Below are positions 6,322 to 47,512 of a stretch of DNA of 64,000 bases, one piece after another. The stretch comes from Jeotgalibacillus malaysiensis (GTDB taxonomy: Bacteria > Bacillota > Bacilli > Bacillales > Jeotgalibacillaceae). Within the stretch, counting starts at the first letter, position 1. Every line of letters starts with the position of its first letter. The stretch covers positions 1,782,501-1,846,500 of the forward strand of contig CP009416.1 of the NCBI GenBank assembly GCA_000818095.1, given 5' to 3'. The notes under the pieces are model-generated. The model ran no database searches. It saw only the letters and a program-made list of their open reading frames with translations, and was not told where the DNA came from. A program made the translations under genes and the position numbers.

Positions 6322-8193
6322 TTAGTCTGCGTATTCTGACAGGTAACTCCAGCGCTCAATTAACTGTTCGAGCTTATCATTCAGATTTTTTAAACTTTCA
6401 TTGATTTCTTCTGCTCTCATATAATCGCTGCCAGTTGATACCAGCTCTTCTTCAAGCTTAACAATCTCTTCTTCAAGTTTTTCAATATCTGATGTAATGG
6501 TTTCCCATTCAATTTTTTCCTTATATGAAAGTCTTGTTTTTTCTTTATCTGCCTTTTTTTCCTGTACTTCTACAATACTTTTAGGAGCTTCTTCAGCAGG
6601 CTCTTCAAGCTGTTTTTCTAGGTAGACCGAATAGTCATCCAGTGTGATTTCGGGCACACCAGATCTATTGAGGATAATTAATTTGTCTGCTACTTTATCA
6701 AGAAAGTACCGATCATGTGATACTGTAATGACAACGCCTTTGAAATTCTCCAGGAAATTCTCAAGTACGGTGAGTGTCTGGGTATCAAGATCGTTTGTCG
6801 GCTCATCAAGCATGAGGACATTCGGCTGCTTCATTAATAGTTTCAGTAGATAAAGTCTTCTTTTTTCTCCACCTGAAAGCTTGTAGATCGGTGTACCGTG
6901 TACCTCAGGGGGAAACAGGAACTGCTCAAGCATTTGAGAAGCTGAAACTGTACCATCATTGGTTTCTACGATTTCAGCGGCTTCTCTGATATACTCGATC
7001 ATCCGGAGCTTCTGATCCATCTCTTCTATTTCTTGTGAGAAATATGCGATTTTAACCGTTTGCCCTATATCAACTGACCCTTGATCCGGTTTAATTCTGC
7101 CGGCAATCATATTCATTAAGGTAGATTTTCCGCTTCCGTTGGATCCTGCTATGCCAATTCTGTCACCAGGCGTAATTAAAAGGTTAAAATCAGAAAACAG
7201 TTCGCGATCATATTTTTTAGAAACGTTTTTAAGCTCGATCACCTGTTTACCAAGTCTGCTGCTGAGTGCGCCAATAGTTAACTCCTGATCCTGGCCTTTA
7301 TCCATAGAGCTTTCCAGACTTTCAAAACGCTGAATTCTTGCTTTTTGTTTTGTGGTACGGGCTTTTGCTCCTCTGCGCATCCAAGCAAGTTCATTTTTAT
7401 AGAGATTATTCTTTTTCTTCTCTGCTGACGCTTCCTGTTCTTCGCGTTCAGCTTTTGCTTCGATGAATTGCTGATAATTTCCTTTATACTTAAATGCACG
7501 CCCGTTATCGATTTCAACCATGGCATTTGATACCTGATCGATAAAATATCTGTCATGGGATACAAATAGCAATGATCCGCTGTATTTTTGCAGGTATTGT
7601 CCAAGCCAAAGTATCGCATCATAATCAAGGTGGTTAGTAGGCTCATCAAGCAGCAGCAGATCCGGTTCTTCTAAGAGCACCTGAGCGAGTGCAACTCTTT
7701 TCTTCTGACCGCCCGAGAGTTCTGAAACCTTTTTCTCGGTTTCATTTATACCGAGTTTTGACAGAATTGACTTAGCCTTAGCTGCAGCATCCCAGGCGTT
7801 TTCTTCATCCATTTTTTGCTGAATATGAAGCATTTTTGATTGAACATCCCCAGATTCAGGGTTCATTTCATATTCATTCATTACCCTCTGGTATTCTGTC
7901 ATCAGCCTTGTAACATTTGCATCACTCTCAAATATCGCCTGCATAACAGTATCTTCGTCTTTTAATAATGGCTCCTGATCCAGCAATTTAACAGTATATT
8001 GCTTTGGTTTTTCAATGTCCCCGGAATCAGGATATTCAAGACCAGCAATTAACTTCATTAATGTTGATTTTCCTGTTCCGTTAACACCGATCAGTCCGAT
8101 TCTATCTGAGTCCGTAATTGTGAAAGACAGATTTTCAAACAGCATTTTTTCGCCATAGGATTTATTTAAATTTAATAACTTACACTGCTTCAT
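6322..8193 (-). CDS. yfmR: ABC-F ATPase, YfmR/Uup type
   Basis: A 623-residue soluble protein with two ABC domains and no membrane segments. Each has a Walker A (GVNGTGKST; GSNGSGKST), a signature (LSGGQKKR; LSGGEKRR) and a Walker B (LLLLDEPTNHLD; VLMLDEPTNDLD). The linker contains the charged NELAWMRRGAKARTTKQKAR block typical of Uup/YfmR, and a C-terminal coiled coil (about 545-620) is visible. ABC-F proteins bind the ribosomal E site; B. subtilis YfmR helps relieve stalling alongside EF-P. Which ABC-F paralogue this is remains an inference. It overlaps ypgQ by four bases (ATGA). Confidence 0.88.
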   Translation of the reverse strand: MKQCKLLNLNKSYGEKMLFENLSFTITDSDRIGLIGVNGTGKSTLMKLIAGLEYPDSGDIEKPKQYTVKLLDQEPLLKDEDTVMQAIFESDANVTRLMTEYQRVMNEYEMNPESGDVQSKMLHIQQKMDEENAWDAAAKAKSILSKLGINETEKKVSELSGGQKKRVALAQVLLEEPDLLLLDEPTNHLDYDAILWLGQYLQKYSGSLLFVSHDRYFIDQVSNAMVEIDNGRAFKYKGNYQQFIEAKAEREEQEASAEKKKNNLYKNELAWMRRGAKARTTKQKARIQRFESLESSMDKGQDQELTIGALSSRLGKQVIELKNVSKKYDRELFSDFNLLITPGDRIGIAGSNGSGKSTLMNMIAGRIKPDQGSVDIGQTVKIAYFSQEIEEMDQKLRMIEYIREAAEIVETNDGTVSASQMLEQFLFPPEVHGTPIYKLSGGEKRRLYLLKLLMKQPNVLMLDEPTNDLDTQTLTVLENFLENFKGVVITVSHDRYFLDKVADKLIILNRSGVPEITLDDYSVYLEKQLEEPAEEAPKSIVEVQEKKADKEKTRLSYKEKIEWETITSDIEKLEEEIVKLEEELVSTGSDYMRAEEINESLKNLNDKLEQLIERWSYLSEYAD

Positions 8194-25611: not shown

Positions 25612-26028
25612 TGGTCAACCAGCTAATGGTCTGTAAGCCATGTTTTGTTCAAGCGTACTAAAGCGCTTATTAAGCTCGTACGACATGCGGCAATCATCTA
25701 TCTGCCGGCACAAAATGCCAGCCTTTCCCTCAGTTCATTTCCTCCGGGAAAGTGCCTCTACCATTGTTTGAGTTTCTCACTCGCGGGGTTTACCTCGTTC
25801 CACTTCTGTCATTTCTGACAGAACTACGTCACTGTGGCACTTTCAAGAGATTCATACCATATCCCAGGGGGACTTAGGTATCTTCTCTGCCGTCAGCCTG
25901 ACGATTCAGACTGCCTCCGCTTATTGTTTCGCGAAGCACGAACACTACGGGCATCTCAGCACCGTGTGAGCATGGACTTTCCTCTGCATTAAGCAGCAAT
26001 TGCCCAACCATTTAGCCGGTTTCGCCAA
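25612..26028 (-). ncRNA. rnpB: RNase P RNA, type B
   Basis: The catalytic RNA of RNase P, which matures tRNA 5' ends. Conserved stretches are unmistakable on the minus strand: GAGGAAAGTCCATGCTC and GGTGCTGAGATGCCCGTAGT (CR-I region), GAAAGTGCCACAGTGACG, GTGGAACGAGGTAAACCCC, and near the 3' end AGATAGATGATTGCCGC and ACAAAACATGGCTTACAGA. The ends pair to form P1 (AACCGGCTAAATGGTT with GACCATTAGCTGGTT). The layout matches Bacillus type B RNA. End points are estimates good to about 10 bases. Confidence 0.97.
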
Positions 26029-43076: not shown

Positions 43077-43463
43077 CTAGCCCATGATCGTTGCTTCAGG
43101 CTCATGGTGGATCATATCTGTTATCTCGTTATGCTCATTCATAATTGCCACTTTGGGATGATGGTTCTTTGCAGCTTCGTTTTCAACCAGCATATATGAA
43201 ATGACTATAATTACATCGCCTTCCTGAACCAGTCTCGCTGCTGCCCCGTTCACACACATAACGCCGCTGCCACGCTTGCCTTTAATAATATACGTTTCAA
43301 AGCGGGCGCCATTATTATTATTGACAATTTGTACTTTCTCATTTGGATACATGCCTACAGCATCAAGAATATCTTCATCTATTGTGATGCTCCCCACATA
43401 ATTAAGGTTCGCTTCTGTTACTCTTGCTCTATGAATTTTTCCACTCATCATTGTTCTGTACAT
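43077..43463 (-). CDS. panD: Aspartate 1-decarboxylase precursor
   Basis: Makes beta-alanine for pantothenate. The 128-residue proenzyme self-cleaves at Gly24-Ser25 ([11 protein letters not shown]) to create the pyruvoyl cofactor; both residues are present. GGAGG lies just before the ATG. It overlaps panC by 16 bases and is followed by dinG. Confidence 0.97.
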
Positions 43464-44311
43464 ACAGATTCCTCCTCAGTCGTAAATATGATGTTGTCGA
43501 TTAGTCTTGCCCGCTCAAACCTCACCGCAGCAGCTAGTATCAGACGGGTATCTGACTCAGAAGGCACCTTTAGTTCTGGATAGGTGAGGATTTCTATATA
43601 ATCAATCTCTCCGCTGACTGCTGAGAGCTCGTCTTTAACATGTTCAATAGCAGCAACTCTGCCTTTTTCGAGATAAACTGCTGCACCTTTTTGTAACGCC
43701 TGATAAATGACAGGCGCCTCATGTCTTTCATCTTTACTTAAATAAACATTTCTTGAGCTTTTAGCAAGTCCATCATCTTCCCTGATTGTTTTAACTGAAA
43801 TGATTTCAGTCGGAAAATGTAAGCTGCCTGCAAGTCCCTCAACTACTGCCACCTGCTGTGCATCCTTTTGCCCGAAAAAACTTTTGTCAGGATCAATCAG
43901 GTTAAATAAGATTGACAGCACTGTCACAACGCCGTCAAAATGCCCGGGTCTTGATGCACCGCAAAGTACATCTGTACGCTCAACAGCTTTAACCGTCACT
44001 GAAGGATCTGATGGATACAGTTCTTTTACATCAGGATTAAAAAGAATATTTACACCGGATTTTTCAGCAAGCAGTATATCCCTCTTCATATCTCTCGGAT
44101 ATCTGTCAAAATCTTCACCCGGTCCAAATTGCAAAGGATTAACGAATATGCTCATGACAGTAACATCACACTGTTCAACTGACTGTTTCACAAGGGATAA
44201 GTGACCCTCATGTAAAAAACCCATTGTTGGAACAAAGCCGATCGTCTTGCCCTGTCTTTTGACATCTTTTATATATTGCTTTATTTCCCGCACCGTGCTT
44301 AAAATAATCAC
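43448..44311 (-). CDS. panC: Pantothenate synthetase
   Basis: Joins pantoate and beta-alanine with ATP. The 287-residue protein shows the HIGH-like motif in [15 protein letters not shown] and the KSKSS-like loop in [13 protein letters not shown]. The start is GTG at 44311, overlapping the panB stop by four bases (GTGA), with GGAGG inside panB nine bases upstream. Confidence 0.97.
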
Positions 44312-45147
44312 GACTTTGTGCCTCCGTAAAGTGAAATTCTTTCTTCTTCTTTCAGGTTAAAAGAATGTGCTTCAGTAGGAAATGCTTCTGCTTTTACTTC
44401 TTTATTATATTGTCTGATTGCACCGGCTATATCCGGATACACTTCAGTGTATTTTTTAACAAACTTCGGAACTCGGTGATCCCCGAAACCGACTAGGTCA
44501 TGAAATACTAGAACCTGACCATCTGCCTGAACACCCGCTCCAATTCCGATTGTCGGAATATCACATTCAGCTGACACTTTCTCGGTAATCTGCTGTGGAA
44601 TACACTCCAGGACAACTGAAAATGCGCCGACTTTTTCACAGGCTTTAGCATCGCTGATCAGCTGTCTTGCCTGATCGGCTGTTTTAGCCTGCACTTTAAA
44701 ACCACCAAGAACGCCTGCACTTTGAGGAGTTAAGCCGAGATGTGCCATAACAGGAATCCCGCTTTCAATCAGTGCTTCAATCATAGGCAGTACATTTCCG
44801 GCGCCTTCTACCTTTACTGCATCTGCACCTGACTCCTGCATGATACGGGCAGCAGATTTTAATGTTTCTTCACGAGAAAGATGATAGGTCATAAATGGCA
44901 TATCCACTACAATAAAAGTGTTTTTAGCTCCTCTTCTCACTGCTTTAGCATGATGGATCATATCATCTATCGTAACCGGCACTGTTGAATTATATCCAAG
45001 GACGACCATACCAAGCGAATCGCCTACAAGAATCATATCAGTCACAGCTTCTTCTGCTGCTTTTGCAGAAGGGTAATCGTAAGCTGTGACCATTGTTATT
45101 TTTTCACCGTTTTGTTTCATCTTTAAAAAATCAGCAGTTGTTTTCAT
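44308..45147 (-). CDS. panB: 3-methyl-2-oxobutanoate hydroxymethyltransferase
   Basis: The first pantothenate enzyme, which makes ketopantoate from alpha-ketoisovalerate and methylene-THF. The 279-residue protein has [31 protein letters not shown] (metal-binding Asp) and [10 protein letters not shown]. It is first in panB-panC-panD and is preceded by a structured leader with a terminator, likely regulating the operon. Confidence 0.97.
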
Positions 45148-45323
45148 ATTTTCTCCTCCTTTATTTCAGAGGGAAACGAAATGGCTGCAGACATAAATAA
45201 AACCTTCTGAATAGACAGAAGGATGCCGCAGTTTATTCCGGTCCTCTGTCCCTGTCACATAATGGATCAAGGCAGATCAAGTTGGTTTGGTTGTAAAAGG
45301 TGCAGTTCACTAAGATACTGCCC
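45148..45323 (-). ncRNA. panB leader, candidate pan RNA motif with transcription attenuator
   Basis: Read on the minus strand, the leader begins with hairpin 1 (GGGCAGT with ACTGCACC, bulged A at 45301; 45299-45323). Hairpin 2 follows (CTGCC with GGGACAG, bulged A; 45246-45275). GACAGAGG (45250-45243) can then pair with CCTTCTGTC (45222-45214) as an antiterminator. The competing terminator is CCTTCTG with CAGAAGG and a TTTTATTT tail (45222-45196). Two tandem stems with bulged adenines in front of panBCD is the description of the pan motif known from Firmicutes. The match is by eye, not by covariance model. Confidence 0.6.
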
Positions 45324-45329
45324 ACACAC

Positions 45330-45338
45330 AGTATAACA
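45330..45338 (-). promoter_or_regulatory. Extended -10 promoter of the pan operon
   Basis: TGTTATACT on the minus strand (45338-45330) is a near-perfect -10 with TG extension. The predicted start near 45323 coincides with the first base of leader hairpin 1. No good -35 is seen. Confidence 0.5.
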
Positions 45339-45360
45339 GATCACGATTGATCTCATCTAT

Positions 45361-45387
45361 AAAAACTACTCAATATCAGCTGAGTAG
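45361..45387 (-). terminator. Terminator formed by the last codons of birA
   Basis: CTACTC and GAGTAG pair around a loop. The stem spans the final codons and the TAG stop of birA, then TTTTTAT follows on the minus strand. Confidence 0.7.
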
Positions 45388-46340
45388 ATCAGGTGTGTCT
45401 CTCCGGTTTCATCAATCAGTTTCAGTACACCTTCATTTGTAATTCCGGATGCGAAGCCTTTAATTTCTTTATTTAACGTTCTTGCAGTGATCTGTCTGCC
45501 AATCGTCACAGCATATTTTTCCCATATTTCTTTAATCGGCTCAAAACCCTCTTTTATATAGACAGCATAGTATTTTTCAAGGTTAGATAAAATCTCCTGA
45601 ACGATACCTGCTCTTGAGAATGTTTTGTCACTCTCAATATGAAGAGAGGTTGCAATCTCTCTGATGTCATCAGAAAAATCCTCAGCTGACTGATTCACGT
45701 TAATGCCCATTCCGATAATAAGTGAGTGAATCTGTTCACTATCCGCCTGAAGTTCTGTTAAAATGCCCGTTACTTTTTTTCCATTAATCAAGAGATCGTT
45801 AGGCCATTTTATATCTACATCCAGGTCACATTTATCTTTAATCGCTTCTACTATCGCAACAGCTGCTATTAATGTAAACTGAGGAGCTTTTTGAGGCGGA
45901 AGAGAAGGTCTCAGTAATAAACTCATCCATATGCCCGTTCCCTTTGGTGAATGCCAGGATCTTGCCATCCGGCCTCTACCTGAGACCTGCTCTTCAGCAA
46001 TTACCAGCGTTCCCTCAGGTGCAGTCTCCTGTGCAAGGCGATGCGCGATTTTTTGTGTGCTTTCAACAGACTCCAAAAAGAGAACGGACCTGCCAAGTGT
46101 CTCTGTTTTCAGACCAACCAGCAGATTGTTTTCATTAAGTTCATCAGTCTTGCCAAGAAGCCTGTATCCTTTTTTTCGTCTGGATTCAATCATAAAGCCT
46201 GAGGACCTTAAATCTTCAATGTGCTTCCATATAGCAGTTCTTGAACAACCCGCCTGATCTGCAAGTTCCTGACCGGAGAAGTAGCTGTTATCTGAAGAAG
46301 AAAGTGCTTCCAGTATAGATTCTCTTATCTTTGAAGCCAT
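45366..46340 (-). CDS. birA: Biotin--protein ligase and biotin repressor BirA
   Basis: A 324-residue bifunctional protein. The N-terminal helix-turn-helix (YFSGQELADQAGCSRTAIWKHIEDL) gives repressor activity on biotin genes. The ligase core shows the biotinyl-AMP loop SGRGRMARSWHSPKG and KWPNDLLINGKKVTGIL. The ATG at 46340 is chosen over the GTG at 46355; GGTGG lies seven bases before it. It overlaps cca by 16 bases. Confidence 0.96.
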   Translation of the reverse strand: MASKIRESILEALSSSDNSYFSGQELADQAGCSRTAIWKHIEDLRSSGFMIESRRKKGYRLLGKTDELNENNLLVGLKTETLGRSVLFLESVESTQKIAHRLAQETAPEGTLVIAEEQVSGRGRMARSWHSPKGTGIWMSLLLRPSLPPQKAPQFTLIAAVAIVEAIKDKCDLDVDIKWPNDLLINGKKVTGILTELQADSEQIHSLIIGMGINVNQSAEDFSDDIREIATSLHIESDKTFSRAGIVQEILSNLEKYYAVYIKEGFEPIKEIWEKYAVTIGRQITARTLNKEIKGFASGITNEGVLKLIDETGETHLIYSADIE

Positions 46341-47512
46341 GTTGTTTCCACCCACTTTTTAATATCACTCATATTGTTTTGTAATTGACCGCTGAGAATT
46401 AATTGTTCGATGATTTCAGTGCATTCTTTAACCCAGGGGCCTCCCCCTTTGCCTGTCCATTTTATTAGATGGGATCCTCTGAAAGCGAGATCAGACCTGG
46501 TTTTGATGACCATTGATTGATAAAGATTATCCAGATGCTCTGAATTGAAGTATTCACGATTCCATACAGCAGTGATCCTCTCAGCTGACTTTACAGCTTC
46601 TATTCCATAATGATATAGATCCACACGGTTAAACATCCTGTTTTTCCTGAGCTGCAAAAGATCTGCTAACAGCTTTTGTTTTTGAATCACTTTATTAGAC
46701 ATTCTCCACTTTTTGAGCAGGACAAATATATCCTGGTATTCACCGATACAAATAATCAGCGCCAGCCGTTCCTCGGGCTGAAGTGACTGCCATTTCAACT
46801 CTTTTAAAAGCATAACAATATTCTTTGTTATCAGATCAGGTATATAACTAAGAATGTCTGCTGTGACTGCATATTGTAATGCTTTTTGCATTGCCGGACC
46901 GGCTAATAATTTTTCAAACTCCGCAGTAATTCTTTCCTGGGCCACCTTAGTTAACGTATGAGCGTTTTTTTTAATTGCTTCGAATGTATGATGCTCTATT
47001 GAAAAGTCCAGCTGGGATACAAAGCGGACCGCTCTCAGCATCCGCAGGGCATCTTCATTAAATCTTTCATCCGGAATACCAACTGTCCTGATCTCCCTGT
47101 TGCTAAGATCAATACGCCCACCAAAAAGGTCTGTCAGCTGATAGGATGAAGAGAGTGCCATGGCGTTCATTGTAAAATCTCTTCTTTTGAGATCCTCTTC
47201 TAGAGATCTAACAAATGTAACTTCATCCGGCCTTCTGCTATCAGAATAAGTACTTTCAGTTCTGAAGGTTGTCACTTCAAACTGACCTTTTTCATGCAAA
47301 ACCATTACGGTTCCATGTTCTATTCCTATATCAATCGTTTTATTAAAAATTTTTTTGATTTCTTCCGGGGTTGCTGATACAGCAATATCAATATCATTGA
47401 TTTCTCTCTTCAGAAAATAATCACGCACACATCCGCCGACAAAATAAGCCTCAAACCCGTGAGCTTCGATATCATTTAGCACCGGCAGCGCCTGACCAAA
47501 TAATTTATTCAT
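46325..47512 (-). CDS. cca: CCA-adding tRNA nucleotidyltransferase
   Basis: Adds or repairs the 3' CCA of tRNAs. The 395-residue class II enzyme shows the GGxVRD loop ([11 protein letters not shown]), the catalytic DxD in [20 protein letters not shown] and the nucleotide-selecting [12 protein letters not shown]. The ATG at 47512 is preferred to 47521, which sits directly on the ribosome binding site. The start overlaps the bshA end by eight bases. Confidence 0.96.

Follow-up and report, generated by a model that had tools for sequence, protein, structure and literature searches.

The window analyzed here is a 64,000-nt stretch of Jeotgalibacillus malaysiensis DNA (CP009416.1, 1,782,501-1,846,500), and all positions below follow its numbering. 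Its minus strand carries the pantothenate genes panB, panC and panD, preceded by birA (45366-46355), which encodes a biotin protein ligase; all assignments were made with Pfam. Application of the Rfam covariance model for the pan motif (RF01749) revealed a 57.2-bit match (gathering score, 36.2) at 45324-45242 of the minus strand, in the leader between birA and panB. At an E value of 0.001, this was the sole match in the whole genome. Like other members of RF01749, the leader contains tandem helices upstream of pantothenate genes, each with two bulged adenines, and the Rfam alignment places five base pairs between the two bulges in both hairpins. The original prediction had recognized a known pan RNA motif in two tandem minus-strand hairpins before panB, and both hairpins were found within one base of where it had placed them. 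It had assigned a single bulged A to each hairpin, whereas there are two, one on each strand, in agreement with both the Rfam consensus and Weinberg et al. 2010.

No mechanism accompanied the 2010 description of the pan motif. That account (Weinberg et al. 2010; PMC2864571) presents the two bulged adenines, the tandem layout and the panB, panC and panD gene context and suggests a dimeric protein-binding role, and an RNA-seq study of Paenibacillus riograndensis lists pan in the 5' UTR of the panB operon (PMC5670726).

Compensatory changes were present in the panB leaders of relatives, with both-side changes at five of the nine hairpin 1 pairs among 26 hairpin 1 sequences, that of the window included. 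Of 180 leaders, 166 have a −10-like hexamer (at most one mismatch) located 5-24 nt upstream of hairpin 1, compared with a mean of 58 for shuffled sequences and with 42 for a region lying further upstream. Transcription is therefore predicted to start at hairpin 1 and not downstream of hairpin 2. The model hit, the compensatory changes and this predicted promoter are the opposite of what was to refute the original prediction. The features of the leader are collected in Table 1. Three of them overlap in the tail that closes the motif: GACAG (45250-45246) is common to hairpin 2 and the tail, GACAGAGG is the putative antiterminator arm, and CAGAGG forms the first part of a second candidate pairing, P3.

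Table 1. Features of the panB leader and operon, in window numbering
Feature	Position	Strand	Basis
TATACT, predicted TG-extended −10 element 5 nt upstream of hairpin 1	45330-45335	−	Sequence
pan hairpin 1; bulged A45316 and A45301	45298-45324	−	RF01749 and covariation
pan hairpin 2; bulged A45267 and A45249; basal CUG/CAG beneath second bulge	45246-45275	−	RF01749
Tail GACAGAGGA	45242-45250	−	RF01749, swap tests, pairing-energy shuffles
Putative antiterminator partner CCUUCUGUC, overlapping terminator 5' arm	45214-45222	−	Swap tests, arm drift, folding, shuffles
Terminator hairpin CCUUCUG-UCUAUU-CAGAAGG (arms 45222-45216 and 45209-45203)	45203-45222	−	Terminator scan and folding
Terminator T-rich tract TTTTATT	45196-45202	−	Sequence
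Candidate P3 5' strand: CAGAGG 45248-45243, CGGAAU 45240-45235, CUGC 45231-45228	45228-45248	−	Swap tests, fixed-register count, shuffles
Candidate P3 3' strand: GCAG 45188-45185, AUUUCG 45182-45177, CCUCUG 45172-45167	45167-45188	−	Swap tests, fixed-register count, shuffles
Predicted anti-Shine-Dalgarno UUUCCCUCU, overlapping P3 3' strand	45168-45176	−	Minimum-free-energy fold and CCTC-word counts
panB Shine-Dalgarno AGGAGG	45155-45160	−	Sequence
panB	44308-45147	−	Pfam PF02548
panC	43448-44311	−	Pfam PF02569
panD	43077-43463	−	Pfam PF02261

Scanning of the window's genome with a model of a single canonical hairpin 1 (R2) gave one match, at panB, and no second pan helix. Across 101 genomes of the order, the same model matched 77, once in each except for two matches in G106, and at least two of these matches, in G024 (which has no pan match) and at another place in G046, were not pan leaders. 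The window's genome contains a second match to PF02548 (the PanB family), and an ordinary full-length RNase P class B RNA (316 bits) lies at 25629-26011 on the minus strand of the window.

Occurrence of the motif and pairing of its tail with the terminator

The pan motif was found in all 12 genomes of the window's family (all one genus), in 319 of 397 genomes drawn from its order, taken to be Bacillales, where panB was present in 382, and in 152 of 398 drawn from its phylum. For comparison, 180 leaders were taken from the order, among which L173 and some low scorers may be false pan leaders, and 25 from elsewhere in the phylum, with two genomes giving two each. A usable start and Shine-Dalgarno sequence were available in 173 of the 180, and a compact terminator in 191 of the 205, the remaining 14 having none. 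L173 (G018) is a second, weak pan-like match (42 bits) in its genome, right before another panB-like start. In L241 (G472), the motif precedes, by eye, a birA-like gene, with coaX ∼1.7 kb further on. Families f2, f7 and f14 have kept panB and gave no pan match; inspection by eye of 15 such leaders showed that in 13 a birA-like reading frame reaches the panB ribosome site, leaving no room for a leader, and that L216 and L225 have another upstream sequence.

In the window, GACAGAGG (45250-45243) and CUUCUGUC (45221-45214) can form eight continuous pairs, one of them G-U, at −12.5 kcal/mol, an energy that 25 of 2000 dinucleotide-shuffled partners also reached. Conservation of this pairing was assessed with a swap test: for the nine bases that end the motif, in silico pairing was computed with the 5' arm and loop of the leader's own terminator or with those of terminators from other families. 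Native combinations averaged −8.12 kcal/mol and swapped combinations −7.16 kcal/mol (64 families, 0/400 swaps), and the separation was also clear outside the order (−7.10 versus −5.61 kcal/mol; 23 families, 0/400). Inside the order alone the test was not significant (89/400) because tail and arm scarcely vary there, the terminator 5' arm being CCTTCT in 130 of 159 leaders. Control swaps with the terminator 3' arm (66/400 and 87/400) or hairpin 1 (52/400) did not separate native from swapped combinations. Co-changed tails and partners were visible by eye outside the order, as CGGAAGG/CCTTCCG in L247, CGGGTA/TACCCG in L245 and AGCTAT/ATAGCT in L246.

The two terminator arms have drifted unequally. 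In 159 leaders per anchoring, cells with the 5' arm kept and the 3' arm changed outnumbered the reverse by 44 to 1 with the 5' arm as anchor and by 33 to 10 with the 3' arm as anchor, which suggests more than a plain terminator, since the latter is expected to drift on both sides. Taken together, the swap tests and the unequal drift support the antiterminator. This comparison also supports the view that the tail/terminator pairing belongs to the element across the phylum sample, other orders included, rather than to this lineage, of which the wiring had been proposed to be a feature.

P3, the panB ribosome site and folding of the leader

Within the window's order, the tail and the bases that follow it show complementarity to a stretch that has CCTCTG at its end and lies just upstream of the panB Shine-Dalgarno sequence, so that P3 would enclose the terminator. 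The window's P3 has a calculated energy of −17.3 kcal/mol, which was reached by 5 of 2000 shuffles. In swap tests, native strands averaged −18.14 kcal/mol and swapped strands −13.99 kcal/mol (42 order families, 0/400), with the same outcome at the level of 103 genera (0/400), and two composition controls were null (260/400 and 187/400). When the register was fixed on a CCTCT anchor, own strands gave 5.79 of 8 outer pairs compared with 5.25 for swapped strands (1/1000; 131 distinct leaders, 38 families), although only 65% of outer P3 cells pair in this register. Each of the last seven outer pairs showed both-side changes, in 4 to 21 families per pair. Among the 47 of 163 leaders in which both words were readable, the combinations were CGAA/UUCG (22), UGAA/UUCA (20) and other or mixed (5). 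The nine-base tail core tested against the 25 nt before the Shine-Dalgarno sequence separated by genus (0/400) and not by family (66/400).

According to the window fold, the bases at 45176-45168 can alternatively pair with the panB Shine-Dalgarno sequence. The pairing of CCUCU with the Shine-Dalgarno sequence amounted to −9.16 kcal/mol, compared with −6.35 kcal/mol for shuffled upstream bases and −4.74 kcal/mol for 12 pan-less panB leaders. Ahead of the ribosome site, 141 of 173 leaders contain a CCTC-like word, whereas CCTC was present in none of the 12 scorable pan-less panB leaders (15 fetched). A swap test for covariation between Shine-Dalgarno and anti-Shine-Dalgarno sequences failed (67/400), and the complementarity may be a by-product because the tail is itself Shine-Dalgarno-like. 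In L158 (G236), a single stretch, AGGAAGGGG...ATG, seems by eye to be at once the panB Shine-Dalgarno sequence and a terminator-like 3' arm, so that one hairpin could serve both jobs.

Folding, at equilibrium throughout, was used to follow these alternatives. Window RNA ending at 45209 formed the antiterminator in place of hairpin 2, RNA ending at 45196 formed hairpin 2 and the terminator, and full-length RNA formed hairpin 2, the outer part of P3 and the terminator, with the Shine-Dalgarno sequence masked. The z-scores of whole-leader folds were modest (−2.45, −1.44 and −1.40 for three transcript lengths). For the window's terminator, the mean pair probability dropped from 0.87 when hairpin 2 was enforced to 0.00 when it was forbidden. 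Over 157 leaders of 40 families, the corresponding family means were 0.884 and 0.673, the value with hairpin 2 being higher by >0.05 in 70 leaders and lower in none. In the window's genus, the terminator fell to ≤0.16 without hairpin 2 in 8 of 12 leaders and was still at 0.88, 0.88, 0.82 and 0.62 in L003, L004, L006 and L012, respectively. The unpaired probability of the Shine-Dalgarno sequence rose from 0.178 with hairpin 2 enforced to 0.351 with it forbidden (165 leaders, 41 families), the site being more open in 99 leaders and less open in 7. Forbidding hairpin 1 had a smaller effect (terminator, 0.818; unpaired Shine-Dalgarno, 0.213), and the terminator with hairpin 2 enforced exceeded that with hairpin 1 forbidden by >0.05 in 41 of 157 leaders. 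Folding thus predicts that formation of hairpin 2 switches the terminator on and masks the ribosome site.

These results bear out several elements of the original prediction, namely the antiterminator pairing before panB, the terminator with its T-rich tract, the GACAG shared by the right arm of hairpin 2 and the antiterminator arm, and the tendency of a stable hairpin 2 to favor termination. The competition it had described between hairpin 2, antiterminator and terminator is upheld by the swap tests, arm drift and constrained folding but was incomplete, the use of the tail by P3 and the anti-Shine-Dalgarno having been missed. By comparison and folding, terminator and antiterminator appear mutually exclusive, the hallmark of a transcription attenuator, with the order-only swap test being non-significant.

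One alternative, which we consider unlikely, is that transcription attenuation alone is regulated and that P3 and the anti-Shine-Dalgarno act passively, as a clamp that insulates the terminator or protects the message. Such an arrangement would agree with tail/terminator pairing across the phylum sample when P3 is shown in the window's order only, and with the non-significant Shine-Dalgarno/anti-Shine-Dalgarno swap test. It fits less well with L130, L133, L135 and L148, where no terminator was detected and the complementarity of the tail to the bases before the Shine-Dalgarno sequence is, by eye, kept, or with the difference in CCTC words between leaders with and without pan. We favor two regulated outputs, and within the window's order P3 with the anti-Shine-Dalgarno is the best-supported new element.

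The double-bulged helix apart from the tandem motif

Hairpin 1 is present in circularly permuted form in all five leaders fetched from family f22: the order of its strands is reversed and both bulged adenines are kept. The five leaders represent five genera and include those of Caldibacillus thermoamylovorans, Perspicuibacillus lycopersici and Fervidibacillus halotolerans. A scan of genome contigs for the permuted helix yielded 35 stretches, of which 3 were f22 panB leaders and 13 formed a transporter class; the other 19, which were without gene context, were dropped. The 13 loci, which all come from metagenome records with Clostridia or Oscillospiraceae in the title, have a single permuted helix with GGAGG and a gene directly after it. 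R1, a model combining this helix with the Shine-Dalgarno sequence, matched 6 of 147 genomes in the order of one of the genomes concerned (G796), where L261-L264 are real by context, L260 is the L206 locus, and L265 was taken as a chance match. The only match among 329 genomes of the window's phylum (L256) was without Shine-Dalgarno or gene context and was also taken as chance, and the phages searched gave no match.

The transporter class therefore comprises 17 loci (the 13 and L261-L264), in each of which the single permuted helix abuts the Shine-Dalgarno sequence of the gene. All 153 pair cells in these helices were standard. Six of the nine pairs were invariant, and both-side changes occurred at two pairs, in four cells (0/500 shuffles for cells, 14/500 for pairs); it should be noted that 13 of the 17 helices cannot vary because they were found with a fixed stem.

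The downstream gene encodes the S component of an ECF transporter (PF12822) in all 17 loci. A profile of the 13 first proteins, 4 of which are only ∼25% identical to the first, matched best the solved chains 6zg3_C (E 2.7e-18) and 4rfs_S (E 3.7e-18), which we take to be pantothenate transporters (PanT); the next, a thiamine transporter, was at 5.7e-4. Used singly, the proteins of L181 (one of the four divergent ones), L262 and L206 matched one or both of the same two chains and no other solved chain. NCBIfam named none of seven transporter proteins above cut-offs and gave weak ThiT/FolT-type matches in five. The gene upstream of the helix is coaX (PF03309) in 9 of the 15 loci in which an upstream gene is visible (8 of 11 in the first set, and L261); an esterase-like gene occupies this place in three first-set loci and, by eye, an ileS-like end in L262-L264. 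In L201 (Gemmiger formicilis), among the dropped stretches, a permuted-helix match at oriented position 6445 lies, by eye, shortly before an ECF-ATPase-like reading frame.

RF01749 did not match the single permuted helix in the eight loci scanned or in the 13 genomes carrying it, and no tandem pan motif was detected in the 13 first-set genomes. The single permuted helix looks like half a pan motif and is not a member of RF01749 by model match. Given the strand-swapped hairpin 1 and the single swapped helix before PanT-like genes, the double-bulged helix looks like a recognized module. These forms narrow the recognized part to about 20 nt, and the helices before PanT-like genes would tie uptake to the same signal as synthesis.

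The module also bears on whether both helices might bind CoA, pantothenate, pantoate or beta-alanine directly, in which case the same downstream switch would be that of a metabolite riboswitch. A small aptamer would suit the conserved bulged A, the tandem layout and the biosynthetic context, and the downstream switch would be identical, but the helix is small, its apical loop is variable, and its single and strand-swapped occurrence is better fitted by a protein reading a double-stranded module than by a tandem pocket. Taken with the dimeric protein-binding motif suggested by Weinberg et al. 2010, this leaves the riboswitch rather improbable.

A putative feedback leader and its relation to known systems

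The observations can be explained by the following model, which we regard as somewhat more probable than not. The panBCD leader would be a feedback device in which the two tandem double-bulged-A helices bind a putative factor reporting vitamin B5/CoA sufficiency, and its output would be the tail right after hairpin 2 (the CAG of the hairpin 2 base plus AGG). Without the factor, the base of hairpin 2 would open and the tail would pair with the terminator 5' arm while RNA polymerase is nearby, giving read-through; in the window's order, the tail would next pair, as P3, with CCUCUG before panB, freeing the Shine-Dalgarno sequence (ON). With the factor bound, hairpin 2 would be clamped and the tail held, so that the terminator would form, and in transcripts that read through CCUCU would mask the Shine-Dalgarno sequence (OFF). 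Comparison supports the anatomy and the tail/terminator and P3 pairings, folding predicts the Shine-Dalgarno masking, and we infer the order of events and the factor. That the bound state is OFF is likely because a helix abutting a Shine-Dalgarno sequence most simply blocks it when bound, because the tail itself looks, by eye, like a Shine-Dalgarno sequence in 2 of 180 leaders (L071 and L110), and because of the coupling to hairpin 2. The model amounts to a concrete, falsifiable circuit with recognition bases, an output tail and two outputs.

A further reading takes the terminator as constitutive or as a by-product of folding and ascribes the complementarities to purine- and pyrimidine-rich composition. 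It is disfavored and very improbable, for although polypurine tails and polypyrimidine partners pair readily and fold z-scores are modest, the swapped-partner tests with their composition controls, the unequal arm drift and the compensatory changes all speak against it.

A candidate for the factor in the feedback model is CoaX, the type III pantothenate kinase. As an RNA-binding sensor of sufficiency, it would read the double-bulged-A helix as a portable, strand-order-independent operator of panBCD and PanT-like genes, a proposal we put forward as speculative and probably incorrect. Among hand-chosen genomes (from 397 in the order and 398 in the phylum), CoaX was encoded in 29 of 29 pan-positive versus 21 of 32 pan-negative panB-bearing genomes of the order (Fisher p 0.0004, ignoring shared ancestry) and in 59 of 60 pan-positive versus 15 of 20 pan-negative genomes of the phylum (Fisher p 0.003, ignoring shared ancestry), the one pan-positive exception being G492. 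By hand count, coaX was on the same strand and at most 10 kb downstream in 22 of 53 pan-positive genomes with both places listed. All of these associations are circumstantial and could be due to common descent and to the usual clustering of pathway genes. The Bordetella homologue of CoaX (Baf) presumably has a regulatory past, and a literature search for Baf gave nothing useful. If the proposal were true, an enzyme without CoA feedback would control synthesis (panBCD) and uptake (PanT-like) through RNA. Type III kinases are reported to be without CoA feedback (PMC12570885). The candidate regulator can be deleted in Bacillus subtilis, which has both CoaA and CoaX and in which loss of either one alone reportedly leaves growth normal (PMC11487621).

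In searches of the open-licence PubMed Central literature, we found no account of the pan mechanism after 2010 and none of the tail partners, the permuted helix or the transporter class; terminators may be marked in the supplements of Weinberg et al. 2010. The motif itself is known, and what is new is its wiring and its permuted, single form. The leader shares with RF01749 its position before panBCD and its tandem pair of helices, each with two bulged A. The RF01749 model ends at the tail and does not cover the tail's partners (terminator 5' arm, P3 and anti-Shine-Dalgarno), the permuted form of hairpin 1 or the permuted helix that occurs singly.

In the pyr and trp leaders of B. subtilis, which are protein-controlled attenuators, the bound RNA favors termination, and a second arm of the trp system masks a Shine-Dalgarno sequence. 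The proposed pan switch would resemble them in its competing antiterminator and terminator, in termination when bound and, for trp, in Shine-Dalgarno masking, whereas its RNA and operon differ and no homology is claimed. The TPP and FMN leaders are vitamin riboswitches that occupy a feedback position before a vitamin operon and act through terminator and Shine-Dalgarno outputs. The pan leader is similar to these in position and outputs but has no large aptamer core; what recurs in it is a short helix with two bulges, which also occurs permuted and on its own.
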